Of a stretch of DNA of 29,490 nucleotides, positions 4,819 through 29,490 are shown one piece after another. Origin of the DNA: Chloroflexi bacterium TSY (lineage in GTDB: Bacteria > Chloroflexota > Anaerolineae > Caldilineales > Caldilineaceae); assembly GCA_019217005.1 (NCBI GenBank), contig JAHBNG010000158.1, positions 1 through 29,490 of the forward strand, given 5' to 3'. The position numbers and the translations under genes are program-made. The notes beneath the pieces are model-generated. The model did not search any database, was not told where the DNA came from, and saw nothing but the letters and a program-made list of their open reading frames with translations. Every line of letters starts with the position of its first letter. Positions within the stretch are counted from its first letter, which is position 1.

Positions 4819-4899
4819 GGCTCATCTAAAAAAATTGTGCAAATCGATGTTTTCGTAAAAGACAAAATATTGCATTTGCACAATTTCGTCTGATGAGCG
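4819..4899. mobile_element. 80-bp palindromic MITE, copy A
   Basis: An 81-bp imperfect palindrome. The arms are GCTCATC(t/a)..AAATTGTGCAAAT and the reverse complement ATTTGCACAATTTCGTCTGATGAGC (split here only for description). It is flanked on both sides by ATAAACACC (4810-4818 and 4900-4908), a 9-bp target duplication, which shows that it moved here as a unit. Copies B (24408-24487) and C (12595-12837) share both arms. It sits just upstream of the S8 protease start and may alter its promoter. It has no coding capacity. Confidence 0.85.
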
Positions 4900-8311: not shown

Positions 8312-8320
8312 TTAAGATGA

Positions 8321-9874
8321 CTCGATAGTTGTATTTTGAGCAGGTGCCGGATTTGACAAAGTCAAAATTAAGCAGAGCAGGCCTGCTGTTTGGCGAAAAG
8401 GGTAGCGAAGACCTCTGCAATCTCCTGTCCGTCATTCAAGGCATGATGTGCAGTCAAGATGAGATCTTGAATTAGTGACTGAGCTTGCTGCCGAGTAGCC
8501 TCACCAAGGGATTTGCTGGGCGAGAATTGAGTTTTAGCCAATGATGGTCCCAAACAATCAAGGTGCAAGAGAGAATAAGCCACGAAGACCAGAGACCAAT
8601 GTTTTTGAAAGGCGTGGGCAGTTCGCATGCAATATTCATCAAGGCCAAGCAGTTGTTTACCATCCTGATAAACCGTCTCGATAGGCCAACGAAGCAGGTA
8701 AATCGAGAGAATGCGTTTGGCATTACAATCAGTGCGATTGGTCACTAAAACGGCCTAATTGCCTTGCAATTCAGGATTATCAAAACTAATCACGATGCGT
8801 ACCTTGCCGATAGAAGGGATACGCACAGTCATGGTAAAGGTATAGTAAGTACGACCATCAATGGTGACAGGTTTGTAGGCATTCTGGGGGGATGTAGGGG
8901 ACCAACTCTTTGACTTTAATATGTGGCCCCTCGAAAGTTATCGGCTGACCGTCTTCATCTCGCAAACGAAAGCTATTTGTCTCCAGATTGCGATTGCACT
9001 TCAAGATGCTGATCCAATCTTTATTCAGACGATCGAGTACAGCTAGAAGATCTGGAGCGAGATACCAACCATCGAAGAGAGCCCAACCAAAGATAAGGGT
9101 TCGTTCAACAGCTTTTTCAACCAGTTCACTGGCAATGGTTATCTTGGTCTTAAACGCTTCGTCTCGCTCTCGAAAGGCGGGGTCAGTTAATAGGTGGCTA
9201 TCCACTCGTTTATGAAAAGCGGTTCGTTCTTTCTTTTTCTTGGGAATCTCAGTCACTGGGAAATGGTTTTCCACAAATGCTTCCCAGTCGGTAAACTCTT
9301 CGTACCGTCGGTAGATACTTGCATCGACCGGAAAACGAACAGCGCCACTGACATAGTGACTTGTGACTAAGTTATGAGCCAGTGGATGCTGACCATTGCT
9401 ATGATTGTAGTGTGTATCGATATACTCGAACAGACTTCCCACGTGTTCACATAGTGTATCGTCAATCGCTAATACCGATTCTGACTCTGAACGTTGGTAT
9501 TGTGCTGTCTCTGACTTCATGTAACCTATACGCTCATCATTGAGTTTTTCGGCTCGCCAAGGAGCTTCACTCAAATACCGTGATATATTCGTCTTATCTG
9601 CACTATCTAGAATGCAGCGGGCAATATTTGCCATGCTTTTGTTGTCCAAGACCATCAGACCCGTCAGATAGTTTTCAAAGTGGCGAAACTGTTTACGATT
9701 GGCAAATACTGAACGAAAGGTTTCGCTATGCTCCCTGACCAGTGGCGCTACATTCACTATCGGCAATTGCATCTTGATGGCTCCTTTTTCGCACTTTTTT
9801 CTTGATGCAATCTATTGAGATGACTTTTGTCTCTTTTGTCAAATTTGGAAAATATTCATTTCACAACTATCGAG
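8321..9874 (-). mobile_element. Insertion sequence IS-B (IS4 superfamily, IS701-like), 1554 bp
   Basis: Perfect 12-bp terminal inverted repeats, CTCGATAGTTGT and ACAACTATCGAG, are flanked by TAAGATGA on both sides (8313-8320, 9875-9882). The boundary may shift by a base because the repeat end overlaps the duplication. The transposase lies on the minus strand. The element landed a few bases beyond the 71-bp MITE, in the same host gene, so the MITE either preceded it or inserted independently next to it. Confidence 0.88.
8368..9772 (-). pseudogene. IS-B transposase (DDE, YREK signature), broken
   Basis: The N-terminal part (9772 to about 8890) carries SVLAIDDTLCEHVG with the first catalytic Asp and LIFGWALFDGWY with the second. 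The C-terminal part has YLLRWPIETVYQDGKQ, which fits the IS4 signature Y-x2-R-x3-E-x6-K. The two parts are in different frames; the shift falls at a run of six C (plus-strand GGGGGG near 8886-8891). A TAG (8755-8757) follows in the second frame, before TNRTDCNAK. The frameshift sits in a homopolymer and could be an error; the TAG looks like a point change. Related to IS701/IS4 transposases by sequence feel, not by a search. Confidence 0.8.
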
Positions 9875-9878
9875 TAAG

Positions 9879-10877: not shown

Positions 10878-11211
10878 CTGTAAAATTGCAGGCGCAAACA
10901 ACTAGACACCTACCGCTCTGAACAACAACTGGGGAATAAACTTGTCTTGCGTCTTCTCGAGCCGCAAATTCGAGCATCGCTCTGGATCAAATTACAAGAC
11001 CATTCAAATAAACAGCAAATCCGTTCAACGAGCATACTCTGGGCGGGTCCGTTCCTATATAAACCCACCCAAGGCATGCTTAGCCTATTCCACAAAAAAT
11101 AGGCGTCCAAATTACAAAAAGGACTCTTGCAACCCAATTTCAGTCGATCCAAAATGTACCTTATGCCCGCAGAGAGAGTATTCTCTAATGCGGCATTACC
11201 CGACCGAAACC

Positions 11212-11366
11212 GGCGTTAGAGATTACACGCAGTAGGATTTCTCAGAGGTAGAGCGTTCAAATGGCGAAAAAAGACGCAGTAGAGAATCTCGGACCATTTG
11301 GCCCGCTCGAGTCTGTTTTGACTGAGAAGTGCAGGATTATGTCTACTGCGTGTAATAGAGAACGCC
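11212..11366. repeat. 155-bp element bounded by 24-nt imperfect inverted arms
   Basis: The left arm (11212-11235) reads GGCGTT-AGAGA-TTACACGCAGTAG. The right arm (11343-11366), reverse-complemented, reads GGCGTT-CTCTA-TTACACGCAGTAG; 20 of 24 positions match and the differences sit in the central five. TTAGAGATTACACGCAG recurs at the very end of the window (29474-29490). A hairpin whose 3' arm is TCTCTAATGCGG (11167-11193) lies just upstream and is the complement of the recurring CCGCATTAGAGA. No target duplication was found, so mobile-element status is unproven. Confidence 0.45.
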
Positions 11367-11489
11367 TTCTCAGCGGGAATTTGGATCGACTGAGTCTAGA
11401 TTTTCGACTGGTATCACGCAACACGTACGTTCTATGAGTAATTTACTTTCTGGAACAGCCCTACTGTACTTCATTCGAATGATCTTGGG

Positions 11490-12837: not shown

Positions 12838-12841
12838 AAAA

Positions 12842-14332
12842 ACTTTACTTTCTGGTAAAAGAAAAGAGATGAGGTGAGAAATGTGACAAAAAGCGGTTAG
12901 CGTTTCATCCTAAAGGTAGAGAACCCAAAAAGGAGGAAGGAATGCTAACCGCGCCAGAAATAACTATAGCAGTACTGATGAATGTATTGCAAGTAACGCC
13001 GGTGGGAACAAACGTAAATGTAATGCGTCTGATGTGGGCGATGATGAATGGGTCGTTTCTGAAAAGTCGAGGAGCAATCCATAGTGGATTGAGTGAAAGC
13101 GGGTTTGAAGATGAGGAGCTGGCGAAGCTGGTGGAGCTGATATGGATCATGGGATATTGCAAGCCTGCTCATCGTGGCAAGAAGAAGTGGAGTGGAAAGG
13201 GGAATGGGAGGCAAAAAAGTTAGAAGGATACCGAGTGAAAAGCATAGATATCACAGGGTTCTGGCGACCGAAGCTGCAAGGGAAAGTGAACCGACTCTAT
13301 AACTCAACGGCTCGTCGGCATTGCCCGCGCTCATCTTTGGAGTGATGATAAGCTCGGGGAGATAGGCGGGAAACGAGTGCCACTGCTCAAGGCAATCATG
13401 AGATGCGAGGTAGGCACAAAGGAAAGTGAGTTTCGGAAAAGCTGCTGAAAGAGACGAAGAAATCACTGGAGTCAGACGAAGTGGCGGTGGTCGATGCCGG
13501 GTTTACAATCAGAGAAATGCTAGAAAGCGACGTCGACCGATTTGTCCTTCGGGAAGCGATTAACTGCACAGCGCGCCGCAATGAGTTACCCGAACGTAAG
13601 GAAAAAGGCAGACCACCCGAATATGGTGATATTGTGCGTCCGCTCTCGATGCTATAGGGAAAGCGACTCGAGGCCACAACTCCAGACTCGTTTGGTCAAT
13701 TTGTCTATAGTGGTCGCCTGATTCGCTATCAAGCATGGCACAATCTCGTCCCCAGGACAACCAAGGTGGATACAGCCAACCGCACCTATTCGATTTACGT
13801 CTTTCAGGATCCTGCTTATCACACACCTTTGGTTCTGGCGACCGTCATGGCTTTACAAGCTGAAACCATTTATCTTTTCTCTGGAGCGCTGGCCTGTTGA
13901 ACATCCCCCCTTGGCTTCCAAGCAGATGATTGGCTTACATCGTCAATTTGTTCATGCCGATGAGGCTTGCTTCCGCTTACCTGAACTGGGGCTGCTGGCT
14001 GGCAATCTTCTTTCCCATTTAGCCGCTTCTCTTCCTCCCATACCGACTGGCTACTGGGATCGAGAGCCTCAAGCCACTCCCGGCAGGCTGCGCCGCGTTC
14101 TCTCGAGTGCTCTTTTTCCAACTCCCGACCAACTCGACCCTGACTTTCGGAAAAAGGCCTCGGTTTCACACCATTTACCTAAAGGCGTTCTCGCTCATCG
14201 CCGCCTCAATGCCGCTGCTTAAACTAGCCGAGCACTATTTTTACATTTTATCCCGTTTTTTCAGGGTAGATTCTTTTTTCCGCCCCTTTCGGTTTGCCCT
14301 TTGTCACTCAAGCCTTTACCAGAAAGTAAAGT
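12842..14332 (+). mobile_element. Insertion sequence IS-C, copy 1 (1491 bp)
   Basis: Terminal repeats ACTTTACTTTCTGGTAAA and TTTACCAGAAAGTAAAGT, with the 5-bp duplication TAAAA on both sides (12837-12841, 14333-14337). It inserted at the right edge of palindromic MITE copy C. A second, inverted copy lies at 19116-20621. The two copies have identical ends and, in the stretches I compared, differ only by small indels. Confidence 0.9.
12942..14222 (+). pseudogene. IS-C transposase, copy 1, frameshifted
   Basis: It starts at ATG 12942 after GGAGGAAGGA (strong ribosome site) with MLTAPEITIAVLMNVLQVTP. Combining both copies gives an intact reading: GYRVKSIDITGFWRP, VAVVDAGFTIREM, LATVMALQAETIYLF, then YLERWPVEHPPLASK, which fits the IS4 signature Y-x2-R-x3-E-x6-K, and a C-terminus ending LAHRRLNAAA. 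Copy 1 carries indels near 13128, 13168, 13200, 13318-13326, 13439, 13600, 13650-13660 and 13881, all in short runs or dinucleotide repeats. Real family assignment beyond the IS4 superfamily is not possible from sight. Confidence 0.8.
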
Positions 14333-14337
14333 TAAAA

Positions 14338-19071: not shown

Positions 19072-19113
19072 TCAAGGGAATAACAGCAGCCCTGTTCTTT
19101 CTGTTTGTGCTTT
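19072..19113 (-). pseudogene. Detached 3' end of the SMP-30 gene
   Basis: Reads KAQTERTGLLLFP and stop (TGA 19072-19074) on the minus strand. It joins DGHLL at the other side of IS-C copy 2 and matches the normal C-terminus of the family (a Glu-Arg-Thr-Gly stretch). It has no start of its own. Confidence 0.75.
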
Positions 19114-19115
19114 TA

Positions 19116-20621
19116 ACTTTACTTTCTGGTAAAGGCTTGAGTGACAAAGGGCAAACCGAAAGGGGCGGAAAAAAGAATCCACCCTGAAAAAACGGGATAA
19201 AATGTAAAAATAGTGCTCGGCTAGTTTAAGCAGCGGCATTGAGGCGGCGATGAGCGAGAACGCCTTTAGGTAAATGGTGTGAAACCGAGGCCTTTTTCCG
19301 AAAGTCAGGGTCGAGTTGGTCGGGAGTTGGAAAAAGAGCACTCGAGAGAACGCGGCGCAGCCTGCCGGGAGTGGCTTGAGGCTCTCGATCCCAGTAGCCA
19401 GTCGGTATGGGAGGAAGAGAAGCGGCTAAATGGGAAAGAAGATTGCCAGCCAGCAGCCCCAGTTCAGGTAAGCGGAAGCAAGCCTCATCGGCATGAACAA
19501 ATTGACGATGTAAGCCAATCATCTGCTTGGAAGCCAAGGGGGGGATGTTCAACAGGCCAGCGCTCCAGATAGAAAAGATAAATGGTTTCAGCTTGTAAAG
19601 CCATGACGGTCGCCAGAACCAAAGGTGTGTGATAAGCAGGATCCTGAAAGACGTAAATCGAATAGGTGCGGTTGGCTGTATCCACCTTGGTTGTCCTGGG
19701 GACGAGATTGTGCCATGCTTGATAGCGAATCAGGCGACCACTATAGACAAATTGACCAAACGAGTCTGGAGTTGTGGCCTCGAGTCGCTTTCCCCTATAG
19801 CATCGAGAGAGCGGACGCACAATATCACCATATTCGGGTGGTCTGCCTTTTTTCCTTACGTTCGGGTAACTCATTGCGGCGCGCTGTGCAGTTAATCGCT
19901 TCCCGAAGGACAAATCGGTCGACGTCGCTTTCTAGCATTTCTCTGATTGTAAACCCGGCATCGACCACCGCCACTTCGTCTGACTCCAGTGATTTCTTCG
20001 TCTCTTTCAGCAGCTTTTTCCGAAACTCACTTTCCTTTGTGCCTACCTCGCATCTCATGATTGCCTTGAGCAGTGGCACTCGTTTCCCGCCTATCTCCCC
20101 CGAGCTTATCATCACTCCAAAGATGAGCGCGGCAATGCCCGACGAGCCGTTGAGTTATAGAGTCGGTTCACTTTCCCTTGCAGCTTCGGTCGCCAGAACC
20201 CTGTGATATCTATGCTTTTCACTCGGTATCCTTCTAACTTTTTTGCCTCCCATTCCCTTTCCACTCCACTTCTTCTTGCCACGATGAGAGCAGGCTTGCA
20301 ATATCCCATGATCCATATCGAAAGCTCCACCAGCTTCGCCGGAGCTCCTCATCTTCAAACCCGCTTTCACTCAATCCACTATGGATTGCTCCTCGACTTT
20401 TCAGAAACGACCCATTCATCATCGCCCACATCAGACGCATTACATTTACGTTTGTTCCCACCGGCGTTACTTGCAATACATTCATCAGTACTGCTATAGT
20501 TATTTCTGGCGCGGTTAGCATTCCTTCCTCCTTTTTGGGTTCTCTACCTTTAGGATGAAACGCTAACCGCTTTTTGTCACATTTCTCACCTCATCTCTTT
20601 TCTTTTACCAGAAAGTAAAGT
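19116..20621 (-). mobile_element. Insertion sequence IS-C, copy 2 (inverted, 1506 bp)
   Basis: Same ends as copy 1 (ACTTTACTTTCTGGTAAA at the left, TTTACCAGAAAGTAAAGT at the right), in the opposite orientation. It lies inside the 3' end of the SMP-30 gene. The left flank is TTTTA and the right flank TTAAG. The uninterrupted gene needs CTTTTAAG here, so the duplication was probably TTTTA (the complement of TAAAA used by copy 1) with T residues lost in the record. Confidence 0.88.
19226..20521 (-). pseudogene. IS-C transposase, copy 2, frameshifted
   Basis: Same protein as in copy 1, MLTAPEITIAVLMNV to LAHRRLNAAA. Its frame breaks fall at other places: an extra CC after GAGGAGCT (near 20347), near 20130 (TCGGGCATTGCCGCG, where copy 1 has TCGGCATTGCCCGCG), and seven instead of six C before TTGGCTTCC (near 19537). 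In the stretches compared I saw no base substitution. A composite of the two copies reads through, so the family was recently active or the breaks are errors. Confidence 0.8.
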
Positions 20622-21477
20622 TTAAGAGATGCCCGTCTATGCTTGTGACATAAAGCGTCCGCAAGTTTGCATCTCCAAAGGAGCAGTTTGTTGGACGATT
20701 GACAGGCAGTGGATGTGTTTCCAGAACGCGCCCATTGGGAGCAAAGACATAGATCATAGCGCCTGGTCCACTCACTTCCCAACCAGCTGTTGCAACAATA
20801 TTTCCTTCCGTGTCCAAACACATCCCATCGATGCCGCGATGCGGATAGAAGTTGTGCAACACCTCAAACTGACCCAGCGTGTCATCATCCAAAATCGGAT
20901 AGGCGCGCAACTCGCGTTTTTCACTGTCGCCATATTTACTTTGCGCAACATAGAGCGTGCGGTTGTCGGGCGAGAGAAGCAATCCATTGGGTGCCGTTGT
21001 ATCGAAGGTCATGCGTTTGCAGTTCCAGGAGCCATCGAGTTGTGGGTCCAGACGGAAAATAGACTCATGATCAAGCTCCATGTCGTGGCGCAACTCGCCG
21101 TAGCGTGGATCCGTAAACCAGATACGTCCTTGTTGATCGATGGCTAGATCATTGGGGCTGTTGAGCCGCTTGCCCTCGAATTGATCGCAGAGAACCGTTA
21201 CACCCCCATCCGCTTCGTAGCGCACAATACGCCGACCACTTGTTGAATCTTTCTCTGGATTCCCACCTTCGCAAGCATAGAGCCGTCCATCCGGGTCGAA
21301 CATCAAGCCATTGGCCCGATTTGTTCCTGTGCGTATCTCAGTTGATTCGCCACTCGCTGGATCATAGCGCATGATGCGGCTGTTAGGAATGTTGGTGTAG
21401 AGTAAGCCGTTGCCGTCCCAGGCAGGTCCTTCCGTCAGGCCCATTGGACCAGCGATCAGTTCAAATGTCCAGGTCAT
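20605..21477 (-). CDS. SMP-30/gluconolactonase/LRE family protein, 3' end displaced by an IS
   Basis: A six-bladed propeller lactonase of the SMP-30 family, usually acting on sugar lactones. Motifs: LTEGPAWDGNGLLYTN (metal Glu), RANGLMFDPDGRLYACEGG, LNSPNDLAIDQQGRIWFTDP (metal Asn), APNGLLLSPDN, and GIDGMCLDTEGNIVAT (catalytic Asp). The last host codons are LYVTSIDGHLL (from about 20622); the final NFTFW and stop are read from the IS-C terminal repeat. The original end, KAQTERTGLLLFP then stop, lies beyond the IS at 19072-19113 in the matching frame. The present protein has lost only about 13 residues of the last strand and gained five, so it may still fold. The ROK and amidohydrolase genes nearby also suggest sugar use. 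Confidence 0.9.
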   Translation of the reverse strand: MTWTFELIAGPMGLTEGPAWDGNGLLYTNIPNSRIMRYDPASGESTEIRTGTNRANGLMFDPDGRLYACEGGNPEKDSTSGRRIVRYEADGGVTVLCDQFEGKRLNSPNDLAIDQQGRIWFTDPRYGELRHDMELDHESIFRLDPQLDGSWNCKRMTFDTTAPNGLLLSPDNRTLYVAQSKYGDSEKRELRAYPILDDDTLGQFEVLHNFYPHRGIDGMCLDTEGNIVATAGWEVSGPGAMIYVFAPNGRVLETHPLPVNRPTNCSFGDANLRTLYVTSIDGHLLNFTFW

Positions 21478-21555: not shown

Positions 21556-24393
21556 TCACTGGGCGAATTGATTTGCGAAAGGAGTGACTATACTTATATT
21601 ATTAATGATCCATTCTTGAAACAATGGAATTTTGATTTTGATTTTTCCATCTTGAACACGCTCAACAACATCGTGCTCTATCAATTCCGTCCAAGGTTCA
21701 GAATCCTCCACCCGCAATCCATCTGGGGCTTGTGCAAGTTTAAATAGAATCTTCTCACTACCACGATCGTTAAGACTAATTTCATCCCAAATGTTCCTGC
21801 AATAGCGATCTAGACCTCGTTCAAAGGTTGGATCCGGATTGAACCGTATTTCGTTTATATCATCGACGGTAAAAAGGGGATCACACAGCCGATTGTTTGA
21901 TAGATCCCGATTGTAATTGTCCATTAAACAGTAGGCCCACAGTTGCACGATATAGGGATGCCCAGCTGACTGGTGAAACACTTCTTCGATCGCTTCATCT
22001 AAACAGTATGGTAGAAAATCCTCATGGGGGTCTCTTAATAATTTTTTGGTATTTTCCCGGGAAATGTAACTAACATGTATCGGTTCTAAGCCTGTGGTAA
22101 AGGGATTATCGAATTGCTCACGGATTTCATTTGGCGTTTTCTTTGTGACAAAGACAAATCCGAGTTGACTTTGAGCTTGAGAAAATTCCCACAAAAATCG
22201 AAGGATATGGTCCTTTGTTCCTGACTGAATAATCAAACTTTCAATATGCTCGAACTCATCCAAAACGATCACCAATGATTGCTCTAGACCCATCTCACAC
22301 ACGCGCTTGACATAAGTATAGAAAGTGTGATTTGGATCTCTGAATATTGCTTCACGCGATGGAGATTGGACATTCGTTTGAATTTCGATCTCAGCACAAA
22401 TCGCCATGAGCAGATGCGATTGCGATGCCCGAATGTCCAAATGCTCAAGATTTACATAAATAAGGATAATACGCCCTGAGTTGAGCGTCTTCTGGTTAAA
22501 AATAACCGAAGTTTTACCTATTTGCGTTTGCCCATACAATAGAACAGGTCGCAGATTTCCTTGTGTCCAAGCATTTTTGAGATCATCTATTATAGTTTGC
22601 CGTCCAACGAAAATGTCCGCATTATGTAGTGGTTCGGCAAAAATATATGGGTTCTCCACTCTTTTCTGAGGAGATATATTGGGAGCGGAATATTTTCCTA
22701 AGAGATTGTACCATTCCATTGATTGCTCCAATAGAATCTGTTCACCCGGCCGAAAATCTTGGTTTGCCACAATTTGCTCCAGGTCAGCGATGATCTTTGC
22801 AAGAATTCCAGTTGCTACCCGCCTAATTATATGTTTTCTCAGACCTCTACAATGCTGGACTACCCAAGAACAGCGAATGAACTCCTGAATGGAAGATAGA
22901 GCGTTCCACGCTTCTTTAAACTTTACATTGTTTGAAGGGACTGATAATTTGAACGGGGCCGTAGGGATGATATTTGGTCCTTCTACAATCCGCTCAAGCG
23001 TATCTGCAAGTTGGCACAATTCTTTTCCTGAATCTCCAAAATCTCTCTTTCGAAGATCTTGTTTTTCAAATGCCTCTTTTGCCTTCCCTGGATATTTCTG
23101 CATCAGATACCATAATCCGGCGATTATCGCCCGTTGAGGTGTATCGGTTGCCAATTCGATCGTTAACGGTTTGCGATCCAAAAGTAAACCTCGCCGTTCT
23201 CTATTCTTTTTCAATCGCCCCTTCTTTTTTGTGCGATTGCCAAAGAATATAGTGGAAGCGGGTGCCGTTGGAATTGTCTTCACGAAAGGAATTGACGTGT
23301 TTGGTGCATACTCCAAAATATCATTTCTGCATGTCTGATTTTCAAACAAAACAAGAACATGATCGATAATTTGTTTATCGGGAGTATCTGCCAATCGTTT
23401 GCGTACAACCTGAATAAGCGGAGGCTTTTGATAGCTGAACTTCAGTAGAATCGTCAAGTTCGATATCCCTTGAGCCCAATCTCGCTCAAGCTCTTCCTCA
23501 AATTCTTGCATTAACCGAGCGAAGGGAATTCGAGTAACATGCGGGATGTTCCAACTCCCGTCGTCATCTGGTTCTTGCGAACAGACAACCCACCCCAATA
23601 ACCAATCATCTGGGCGCAACACAATAAACACTAGTGTGGCACAGGCAACGAAAAAAGTGATGATACTCCAGTAAAGTGCGGTTAGAATTGAATCGGCAGC
23701 TGAACCTGCAGCCGGCATATAGTACCGAACGAGAAGACCAAAGATGAGAATAAAAAGAACACCGAAGCTACCATACGAAATATTTCGTTGCTCTGTATTG
23801 GTTGAATATTTTAGCAGAATCAATATTGCTGTCCCAGTGATAACGCCAATCAATAGTCCGATAAATAAACTTTGTGAAATATGTGTTCTAAATATTAAAT
23901 CATGGATTAATGGTATGCTGATGAACGAGCTAATGATCCCCAGGTAGATTGCGTGATGAATAAACGGAATAATCAAATTTTTTATACTAAATCCTAAAAT
24001 AACAATCAGGAAAAAGAAAATAAGCCCGACGATACTACCCGCAAAAAACCTCGATAGGGTTACTGTTCCAGACCCTATATTATTGACGAGGAGCCAATAA
24101 CATACATTGATCGACAGCAGCAGCAAAGTCCCCAAAAGAGCTGTTTGCCAAAAGAATTGTGTAATCAAACGGGATTTGCTGAATTGACCCGTTAGATTGT
24201 TTTGGATACTTGCGTCATGTGTTGGTGAAAAAGGAAGATTGTTCAACCAATCAATATAATGCTCAATTGCTTGAGGGAAATATAAATACCAAACCAACAG
24301 CTGGATATTGTCGCGAGGACTCTTCCAATTCAAGACCGAAGTTATTTTTGGTGCAAGATTTAGCGATTGAATAGGTTGCTGTTCGGGAATCAT
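21556..24393 (-). CDS. Membrane-anchored AAA/STAND-like ATPase
   Basis: About 945 residues. I prefer ATG 24393 (MIPEQQPIQSL); the longer start at 24414 lies inside the terminal repeat of a MITE. Numbered from the 24414 start: residues 1-85 cytosolic; six hydrophobic helices at about 87-110, 122-142, 152-175, 182-203, 214-231 and 244-266; a soluble helical region 280-590 that I do not recognise; then NPYIFAEPLHNADIFVGRQ and a P-loop ATPase with Walker A GQTQIGKTS (628-636) and Walker B VIVLDEF (715-721). After that come GFVFVTKKT, a lid-like region with SAGHPYIVQLWAYCL, and a C-terminal winged-helix-like end. This is the Orc1/STAND-like AAA type common in Chloroflexota signalling proteins. It is divergent from the CHAT protease gene, hinting at a joint role; the function is unknown. 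Confidence 0.85.
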   Translation of the reverse strand: MIPEQQPIQSLNLAPKITSVLNWKSPRDNIQLLVWYLYFPQAIEHYIDWLNNLPFSPTHDASIQNNLTGQFSKSRLITQFFWQTALLGTLLLLSINVCYWLLVNNIGSGTVTLSRFFAGSIVGLIFFFLIVILGFSIKNLIIPFIHHAIYLGIISSFISIPLIHDLIFRTHISQSLFIGLLIGVITGTAILILLKYSTNTEQRNISYGSFGVLFILIFGLLVRYYMPAAGSAADSILTALYWSIITFFVACATLVFIVLRPDDWLLGWVVCSQEPDDDGSWNIPHVTRIPFARLMQEFEEELERDWAQGISNLTILLKFSYQKPPLIQVVRKRLADTPDKQIIDHVLVLFENQTCRNDILEYAPNTSIPFVKTIPTAPASTIFFGNRTKKKGRLKKNRERRGLLLDRKPLTIELATDTPQRAIIAGLWYLMQKYPGKAKEAFEKQDLRKRDFGDSGKELCQLADTLERIVEGPNIIPTAPFKLSVPSNNVKFKEAWNALSSIQEFIRCSWVVQHCRGLRKHIIRRVATGILAKIIADLEQIVANQDFRPGEQILLEQSMEWYNLLGKYSAPNISPQKRVENPYIFAEPLHNADIFVGRQTIIDDLKNAWTQGNLRPVLLYGQTQIGKTSVIFNQKTLNSGRIILIYVNLEHLDIRASQSHLLMAICAEIEIQTNVQSPSREAIFRDPNHTFYTYVKRVCEMGLEQSLVIVLDEFEHIESLIIQSGTKDHILRFLWEFSQAQSQLGFVFVTKKTPNEIREQFDNPFTTGLEPIHVSYISRENTKKLLRDPHEDFLPYCLDEAIEEVFHQSAGHPYIVQLWAYCLMDNYNRDLSNNRLCDPLFTVDDINEIRFNPDPTFERGLDRYCRNIWDEISLNDRGSEKILFKLAQAPDGLRVEDSEPWTELIEHDVVERVQDGKIKIKIPLFQEWIINNISIVTPFANQFAQ

Positions 24394-24407
24394 TACGAAA
24401 ACTTTTT

Positions 24408-24487
24408 GGCTCATCTATGAAAAGTGTGCAAATCGACGATCATATCGCCCAAATTTCACAGATTTGCACACTTTCGTCTGATGAGCG
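24408..24487. mobile_element. 80-bp palindromic MITE, copy B
   Basis: It begins GGCTCATCTATGAAAAGTGT and ends GCACACTTTCGTCTGATGAG-CG, with the duplication AACTTTTT (24400-24407, 24488-24495; a ninth base may be lost in the T run). Same arms and orientation as copy A. It lies 14 bp upstream of the preferred ATPase start. Its end supplies an in-frame ATG (24414) to the gene. Confidence 0.85.
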
Positions 24488-24699
24488 AACTTTTTTTAGC
24501 CGTATCTTTTCGACAGTCATTACAATATTATCTGTAGTGTGCTGAGTATCTGGTGCTCGAATTTGTTCTATTTGATCCTTTTTGGTACAACATATTTACA
24601 GACAGTAGCTGCAAAAGGGACATACACAGAAGTATAAAACATTCGCGTATCGATTCTGTAATCAGCAGTGTCGCCATAGGACAACGAACGTAGACGAAA
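24488..24699. promoter_or_regulatory. Divergent regulatory region of the ATPase/CHAT pair
   Basis: About 210 bp shared between the two 5' ends once MITE B is set aside. AT-rich with several -10-like stretches (for example TTACAATATTATC near 24520), so both promoters probably lie here. The minus-strand frame at 24528-24881 is not a gene. No operator could be identified. Confidence 0.4.
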
Positions 24700-26611
24700 A
24701 TGCTAGAATCAGTAGATCCAAATTTCAGGTTTTGAGAGAGAATTCTGGCTAAACAGTTGACATAAATACAAATTTGCCGGTCGATATCTAGTTTTTGCGT
24801 TAGATTTGGGCGATTTTCAGATATGAAATAGGTTGTTTTCTGTAACCGAAATCTGAATAAATGACTCCAAAATCCCTGCAATCTCGACTGAAAATAGCCA
24901 AAAACGCCAAATTTGGATCTACTGAGAATACTTAAATTTTGATTTAACCATTATCCCAGATCGACGTTCTAAAAACCGTTATCAAGCCCGCGTATCATAT
25001 TCGCCTACAGGCGAAAATAGCCAGGATTTCGCACTCGACATTAACAGCAAAGAATGGTTCCATTTGCTTGACCAACTAGAAAATGCCTGGTTTGATAAAA
25101 CATCAACCGGTAACGAGGCGATGCAAATCGGACAGAAGCTGTATAACACAGTATTTGATGTCAATATACGTTCTTTATTTGAAGCAAGTCGTCAGAGAGC
25201 GCGTGCAGAAGGAAAAAGATTGAGAATTCGTCTTTGTCTGACAGAGGTACCCGAACTTGCAAGGCTGCCCTGGGAGTCTATGTACAATACATCTTCAGAA
25301 CATTTTTTTGCGTGCTCAATCGAAACACCAATCGTTCGTTATTTAGCAACTTCTTACGATAATGGTCAACGCAACACAACCCTACCGTTGCGTATGCTAG
25401 TTATATCCGCTAGCCCTAGAAATTTTGATGCAAAGGATATTGAACAACAATGGAGGACAATCCAATCCTCAGTAAGAGTGCTCCAAGATCAAGGTGTTCT
25501 TCATGTAGAATATCTACGAGATATCACAATACAACGGCTGCAAGCAAGATTGAGACGGGAAAAGTATGATATTATTCACTTTATAGGACATGGAGAGTTC
25601 AATGACTCCTCTCAAAATGGCACGCTGTTCTTTTTAACTGATCAAGGAAATGTAAAAACCGTAACTGGAAATGTATTAGGGGCATTGCTATATGATGCAG
25701 CACCCACGCTGCGTTTGGTGATTCTGAATGCTTGTGACGGTGCCCGCGCAAATTCTCGTCATAGCTTTTCTGGCGTTGCTCAGCATCTTGTACAAAAATC
25801 TATACCGATGGTGATTGCAATGCAATCCCAGATATCTGTTCAAGCTGCGACAAAGTTCTCAGAGATTTTCTATCAATCGCTGATAGATGGCTATCCGGTT
25901 GATGCGGCGTTAACTGAGGCGCGCAAATCTCTCTGGTTCGAACTCAACACCATGGAGTGGGCAATACCCGTCTTATTTATGCGAACGTCTGATGGTTACT
26001 TGCTCGATGCCAAAAGTCTATCTAGTAAATCATCGAATTCACCGGCACCTTCTACGCGCTTGGCAGAATCAACGCTTCCGCCTCGGCCCATATTGCAAAT
26101 GAACCGTCGTTTAGGGGGAAATTCCAAAGACGAAAAGCCAAGCCCCAATTTGCGCATAAAAAAAGGTGATCAAGTTCGCCAATTTTCAATTATGTATCGA
26201 TGGGGAAAGCAGAAGTTTTCGGAAACCTGCTCTTTTCTCATCAATGATTGCAAAATAGAATTTCGTATGCTCGATCATGAGTATGGATCTGAGCCCAGTA
26301 ATCCTAAATGTATCTCTGCATTTAGAATATTGTTCGGGGAAAAAGTCCAACGCTGTAAAGGATTTGAACGAGATATCGTATTGGTTAGCGAGCAAAAGGT
26401 GCAACAGAAACTACAACCTAAGAGCAAGAAAACTAATTTCGTGATAGCAGAGAAAGGAAGAGAATTCACGATTCTGGGGAAGCAATTTTATTTAAGATGT
26501 GTTGTGAAGGATGTCAAGTTTAGACCAAAGCATCTCAACAGACCAATCAAATATAAAGTATTCGAGCGTTTTCAGCTCGATGTAGAAGTAATCTATAAAG
26601 GCAAAAGATAA
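24700..26611 (+). CDS. CHAT-domain caspase-like protease, start separated by a MITE
   Basis: CHAT (caspase HetF associated with TPRs) peptidase. Removing the 215-bp MITE (24710-24924) and one AGAAT joins ATG 24700 to the rest: MLEYLNFDLTIIPDRR, then KNRYQARVSYSPTGENSQDF, giving about 563 codons. The catalytic dyad is His in HFIGHGEF (rebuilt residue 224; codon near 25589) and Cys in LNACDGA (rebuilt 272; near 25733). Other family marks are LARLPWESMY, LRMLVISASP, GVAQHLVQKSIPMVIAMQ, and DAALTEARKSL. The last 170 residues (from about 26100) are basic and beta-rich and match no domain I know. As the DNA stands, the ATG frame stops after 11 codons in the MITE, and only weak internal starts (for example TTG 25064) remain, so expression is in doubt. 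Divergent from the membrane ATPase; ends at a hairpin terminator. Confidence 0.88.
24710..24924. mobile_element. 215-bp MITE inserted at codon 4 of the CHAT gene
   Basis: Perfect 16-bp terminal inverted repeats, CAGTAGATCCAAATTT and AAATTTGGATCTACTG. The duplication AGAAT flanks it (24705-24709, 24925-24929). Excision restores ATG CTA GAA TAC TTA AAT TTT GAT. No transposase inside. Two short frames within it (from 24700 and 24861) end before the host frame resumes. Confidence 0.9.
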
Positions 26612-29430: not shown

Positions 29431-29490
29431 AGGAGGCGTTCTCTTACGCCGGTAGTCCCGGGGCAGAGCCGCATTAGAGATTACACGCAG
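29431..29490. repeat. Recurring motif at the window end
   Basis: GGCGTTCTCTTACGCC is a short hairpin. It is followed by CCGCATTAGAGATTACACGC-AG (29469-29490), whose last 17 bases match 11216-11232. The motif runs off the window, so its full extent cannot be seen. Confidence 0.45.

Follow-up and report, generated by a model that had tools for sequence, protein, structure and literature searches.

Within the 29,490-nucleotide stretch of Chloroflexi bacterium TSY DNA analysed here (hereafter the window), a gene for a CHAT-family protein is called from a TTG codon at position 25064, and a short element with inverted ends lies a little upstream. This raises the questions of where the gene originally began, what now separates its start codon from the remaining coding sequence and what kind of protein, if any, the interrupted gene can still yield.

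The element and the broken reading frame

The element spans 215 bp (24710–24924) and is bounded by two 16-bp terminal inverted repeats, CAGTAGATCCAAATTT, at 24710–24725 on the plus strand and at 24909–24924 on the minus strand, which match each other perfectly. An AGAAT target-site duplication flanks it, with its left copy at 24705–24709 and its right copy at 24925–24929. An earlier note had described a 215-bp MITE with 16-bp perfect inverted ends and AGAAT on both sides, and its coordinates proved exact to the base. With one flanking base included, the 25-nt arm pair is 88% complementary. When up to three mismatches were allowed, the 16-mer occurred at four sites in the window against 0.37 expected, two of them these ends and the other two the ends of a second element at 11141–11392. 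The 215-bp element thus shows the hallmarks of a MITE: it is short, has inverted ends and a target-site duplication, and contains no transposase gene.

Little else was found within it. Read in the phase of the CHAT gene, the element contains five stops, the last being a TGA at its right end, and the sole listed open reading frame of at least 80 aa over the element (117 aa, minus strand) runs out of it. Its predicted RNA fold is good (z −4.31), which is uninformative because the inverted ends alone would give it, and no Rfam family matched in the window at gathering cut-offs. The interior has no relative in the plasmid collection or among the BLAST matches listed.

Reading frame and homologues place the original start of the CHAT gene at ATG CTA GAA (24700–24708, plus strand). 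An in-frame TAG at 24691–24693, the third codon before ATG 24700, leaves this ATG as the only nearby start for the CHAT frame. The frame resumes at 24926 with GAA TAC TTA AAT TTT GAT, in the same codon phase as ATG CTA GAA, as the earlier note had proposed, and the insertion therefore splits the gene after codon 3. The element and one AGAAT together measure 220 bp, so the frame is shifted by 1. Translation from ATG 24700 now reads MLESVDPNFRF followed by a stop, 11 codons that end within the element. The CHAT frame itself is closed by an in-frame TGA at 24923–24925 (plus strand), formed where the right terminus of the element joins the leading A of the right AGAAT copy, two codons before a conserved tyrosine. 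The first ATG, GTG or TTG remaining in the CHAT frame is TTG 25064.

A further MITE-like element, of a different kind, was seen by eye upstream of this site. It is 80 bp long (24408–24487), has the ends GGCTCATC and GATGAGCG, and is flanked by an 8-bp duplication, AACTTTTT, at 24400–24407 and 24488–24495; a comparable element near 4819 has ATAAACACC on its flanks. It stands 14 bp upstream of ATG 24393, the codon at which the database copy of a divergent AAA ATPase gene starts. With the MITE at the CHAT gene, this places a small element 5′ in both divergent genes. The AAA protein (952 aa, 21556–24414) has only two distant relatives at E ≤ 1e-10 besides its own copy.

The severed N-terminus and the remaining CHAT protein

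Downstream of the element, positions 24926–25063 (plus strand) encode a segment beginning EYLNFDL that the insertion has separated from its start codon. A protein search returned 176 homologues, and our counts rest on the best 120 of these, or 119 without the window's own protein. A motif of the Y..FD type, defined by a wide regular expression, is found among the 20 N-terminal residues of 87 of the 119 listed homologues, including 50 of the 57 best. When the severed 65-residue piece alone served as an HMM query, the signal was weaker, with 64 of the 119 matched at E ≤ 1 and 20 at E < 0.01. The tyrosine is invariant in 49 aligned homologues, in which 2–6 residues precede it; here there would be three. 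In selecting these 49, which served for both the alignment and the structural model, late starters among the 120 listed (for example P0006, P0021, P0031 and P0034) were excluded, which biases the count of 49 of 49 and makes 87 of 119 the fairer figure.

A structural model started at 24926 and folded with the 49 homologues places residues 1–40 in pLDDT blocks of 90–98, with predicted strands at residues 2–11, 18–25 and 31–36. In the numbering of the model, TTG 25064 is residue 47 and ATG 25121, a further candidate start, is residue 66, so either start would lose all three predicted strands. Judged by its conservation in homologues and its confident modelling, the severed N-terminus is a real part of the protein. 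Homologues carry the YLNFDL part directly after their start codon, rather than beginning near the TTG, and show no interruption corresponding to 24710–24924. The conserved part upstream of the called start bears out the earlier suggestion that the open reading frame calls miss the N-terminus.

What remains of the gene is an open reading frame of 515 aa from the TTG (25064–26611, plus strand) with no internal stop. It matches the Pfam CHAT domain (PF12770) at E 3e-27. All 49 aligned homologues have His222 and 48 have Cys270; the window protein has both residues, which we take to be the catalytic pair of the CHAT protease. PADLOC reported SAVED_CHAT (E 7.1e-13) and BovA (E 5.6e-8). The C-terminal part of the protein has no Pfam match and a low-confidence model. 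By its domain and its His and Cys residues, we assign the gene to the CHAT protease family.

Related ends and a candidate ISH3-type partner

The same ends recur within the window and in other genomes. A two-ended search pattern, which allowed CAGTMGATCCAAA, matched two elements in the window (24710–24924 and 11141–11392) and three in a genome-contig collection, of which an Acidobacteria MAG carries two and an Anaerolineae MAG one. Those three carry perfect 5-bp duplications (AGACT, AAACT and AGTCT); no viral contig contained the both-ended pattern. In the Anaerolineae MAG the 13-base end occurs 26 times and its reversed control not at all. Across its class, the exact 16-mer was found in 14 of 396 genomes, with the first positions in each genome listed and the reversed control at zero in every row; copy numbers of the end reached 53 in one genome (G280) and 20 in another. 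Among 118 genomes from the class to which the Acidobacteria MAG belongs, the MAG itself is the sole carrier of the 16-mer.

We catalogued 25 distinct elements from the fetched loci under mismatch limits on the ends (a pair at L040 falls outside this rule), including the two in the window. The 5-bp flanks are identical in 15 elements, match at 4 of 5 positions in 9 and at 3 of 5 in one, the second window element. More than half of the catalogue (13 of 25) consists of elements only 91–97 bp long. Among the BLAST matches listed, similarity between species is confined to the ends and a few bases next to them, and the interiors differ. A 26-bp remnant in genome G002 (L017:1501–1526, corresponding to G002:C102:12254–12279) has inverted ends that meet directly, between AGACT and AGTCT, and could represent an extreme internal deletion.

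The second window element (252 bp, 11141–11392) is the one further like-ended element in the window and has a different interior. Its flanks, AATTT and AGTCT, match at 3 of 5 positions, so it is probably older than the 215-bp element. It contains an inner inverted repeat (11212–11235/11343–11366), and part of it resembles 29461–29484 at the edge of the window.

A putative autonomous partner is found in genome G249, where the same ends enclose a 1292-bp copy (L046:1501–2792) encoding a 388-aa DDE transposase. One of its ends is identical to the 16-mer and the other has one mismatch in 16; its flanks, AGTCT and AGACT, match at 4 of 5 positions. Among four NCBIfam families, this transposase best matched ISH3 (E 2.9e-48), with a score of 164.5 bits that lies below the curated NF033541 cut-off of 225, pointing to an ISH3-like protein or a divergent ISH3 branch. 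By sequence, no convincing relative was found among solved structures (best E 0.53). Searching with this transposase matched 21 of the 396 genomes at E ≤ 1e-20. From this search and that of the element-carrying genomes, we examined 29 transposase loci, one of them from the Acidobacteria MAG. Paired ends, for which the test required CAGTA, were found at 19 of them, four being copies in one genome, and the other 10 were unpaired; in G213 a transposase-bearing element showed only one end. Flanks could be read at 18 autonomous loci, 10 of which had identical flanks, 5 a match at 4 of 5 positions and 3 a match at 3 of 5. The 5-bp duplications usually take the form A-NNN-T; those of L087 and L100 do not end in T. 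A Y-(2)-R-(3)-E-(3)-R motif is present at 20 of the 29 loci, including the partner at L063, and the 9 loci lacking it are partial or carry stops.

These features compare closely with published ISH3 elements, a family split from the IS4 family, for which excerpts of the defining paper give CRGT ends and duplications of 4–5 bp, most often of 5 bp with A at one edge and T at the other (PMC2266710). The 215-bp element ends in CAGT on both sides, fitting CRGT. Taken together, it looks like a non-autonomous MITE of the ISH3 insertion-sequence type, an assignment made from sequence features.

The distribution of the transposase and of the ends overlaps in part. A transposase relative was detectable in 4 of 15 element-carrying genomes searched and went undetected in the other 11, among them G280 and G002 with their many copies. 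In the class sample, 14 genomes bear the end and 21 the transposase; the two coincide in 3, where 0.74 would be expected, a co-occurrence that amounts to a weak link. Many of the copies may be relics, or may have been mobilized by relatives that have diverged beyond recognition; incompleteness of the MAGs is another possible reason. In the window itself, tblastn with five query transposases found no ISH3-like transposase (best E 0.12).

The window encodes transposases of other kinds. IS701-like and weak IS256-like transposases were rejected as partners since their ends differ from CAGTAGATCC. The IS701-like element, at 8320–9875, has a transposase split over two open reading frames (8368–8745 and 8858–9772) and looks broken. 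Two nearly identical inverted long repeats (12840–14337 and 19111–20623), probably IS copies, surround about 4.8 kb with several open reading frames.

Fate of the CHAT gene and comparison with known systems

We consider it very probable that an ISH3-type MITE inserted into the CHAT gene and that the protein was probably damaged as a result, a joint claim that partly overlaps with the use of a truncated product discussed below. An ISH3-type DDE transposase made elsewhere in the cell would have mobilized the MITE in trans from another site, a step that we infer from the behaviour of the ISH3 family. The MITE would then have joined the gene at AGAAT, just past the third CHAT codon, duplicating 5 bp. 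As the sequence and the model suggest, ATG 24700 would now yield only the 11-residue peptide and full-length CHAT protein would no longer be made. Any product from TTG 25064 or ATG 25121 would lack the three strands and would probably be unstable or without activity. The inverted ends and the duplications are perfect and neither half of the gene has gained a stop, which makes a recent insertion probable, in contrast to the second window element, whose flanks are worn.

As the main rival reading, it is conceivable, if rather unlikely, that translation from TTG 25064 or ATG 25121 gives a working N-truncated CHAT protein, possibly under altered control. The CHAT open reading frame is open throughout and keeps both His222, which is invariant, and Cys270, which is nearly so, and the Pfam CHAT match begins only at residue 22 of the TTG reading frame, so both starts keep the domain match. 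A near-identical database protein, P0001, begins at ATG 25121, although that start is a gene call, and a few listed homologues such as P0006 also start late, possibly through a gene call or a contig end. Against a working product of this kind stand the conservation of the severed part and its high-confidence modelling as three strands; the structure model thus favours damage to the protein. By eye, neither TTG 25064 nor ATG 25121 is preceded by a good ribosome-binding site, GAGG sitting only 2 nt before ATG 25121, but the original ATG likewise has none. Between 24400 and 25130, no promoter-like site was found against 2.4 expected by chance, in a scan that says little for this host, and the number of terminators found in the same interval was also zero.

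The two other readings concern the presence of the element itself. The earlier note had speculated that reversible excision might act as an on/off switch. In its fullest form, precise, transposase-driven loss of the MITE would re-create an intact gene for a costly CHAT protease in a minority of cells, and most of the population would keep the protein switched off. Perfect ends and duplications would in principle permit exact restoration, and the downstream CHAT frame is undecayed. The lack of an ISH3-like transposase relative in the window speaks against such a switch, as does the protein search, which gave no separate cluster of intact-length CHAT proteins among the matches listed. The nearest thing to a scar is the 26-bp remnant in G002, which keeps both ends and is therefore not a precise excision. 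Reversible excision consequently found no support, and we judge it highly improbable. We give still less credence to an artefact of assembly or strain mixture, in which the element belongs elsewhere and was joined at 24710–24924. The window may derive from a metagenome, but a clean ISH3-type 5-bp duplication at the exact ends of the element would be unexpected from a misjoin, and the protein starting downstream of the element appears on three contigs in the database, which lends weak support to the join.

Insertion of the MITE, with probable damage to the gene, thus remains the preferred reading, and several consequences follow from it. The annotation should record an interrupted CHAT gene whose start is not at 25064. 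The element can be tied to a precise transposon family, and the event is clear but ordinary in kind. A recently broken CHAT gene might offer a handle on whether keeping CHAT genes carries a cost. More broadly, ISH3-type ends, known in 2008 only from archaea and described in excerpts of the paper of that year as 'so far restricted to archaea' (PMC2266710), here sit on small non-autonomous bacterial elements. Their carriers, some with high copy numbers, are one Acidobacteria MAG and genomes from the class to which the Anaerolineae MAG belongs. Excerpts of a 2022 survey place ISH3 in fewer than 9 phyla, with a strong archaeal preference, and mention no non-autonomous element of this sort (PMC9208149). 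In one open library, we found no description of an ISH3-type MITE in Chloroflexi, and the sole match to CAGTAGATC in a search for insertion-sequence literature concerned E. coli genomics.

Compared with known CHAT proteases, the predicted fold of the window protein matches separase, SAVED-CHAT and TPR-CHAT (best E 1.5e-11), at modest TM-scores of about 0.3–0.44 by query length. By contrast with SAVED-CHAT and TPR-CHAT/Craspase, Pfam reports no SAVED or TPR domain in the window protein, and the PADLOC match to SAVED-CHAT spans only its CHAT part.

As for the element, it differs from ISH3 proper in having no transposase, in the bacterial origin of its partners and in the score of the partner transposase, which falls under the NCBI cut-off. 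Its group shares with ISH3, as far as the published excerpts describe that family, the CAGT ends, the 5-bp duplication bounded by A and T, the transposase motif and autonomous copies of about 1.25–1.5 kb. The short elements MITEAba12 and MITEPsy1 are driven by another IS family. Unlike these, the window group has interiors that bear no likeness between species outside the ends, among the matches listed. The resemblance, drawn from excerpts of both descriptions, lies in their being short and non-autonomous and in where they settle: MITEAba12 landed within a gene, hns (PMC6382973), and MITEPsy1 lies 14 nt before the start codon of a transposase gene (PMC3189936).
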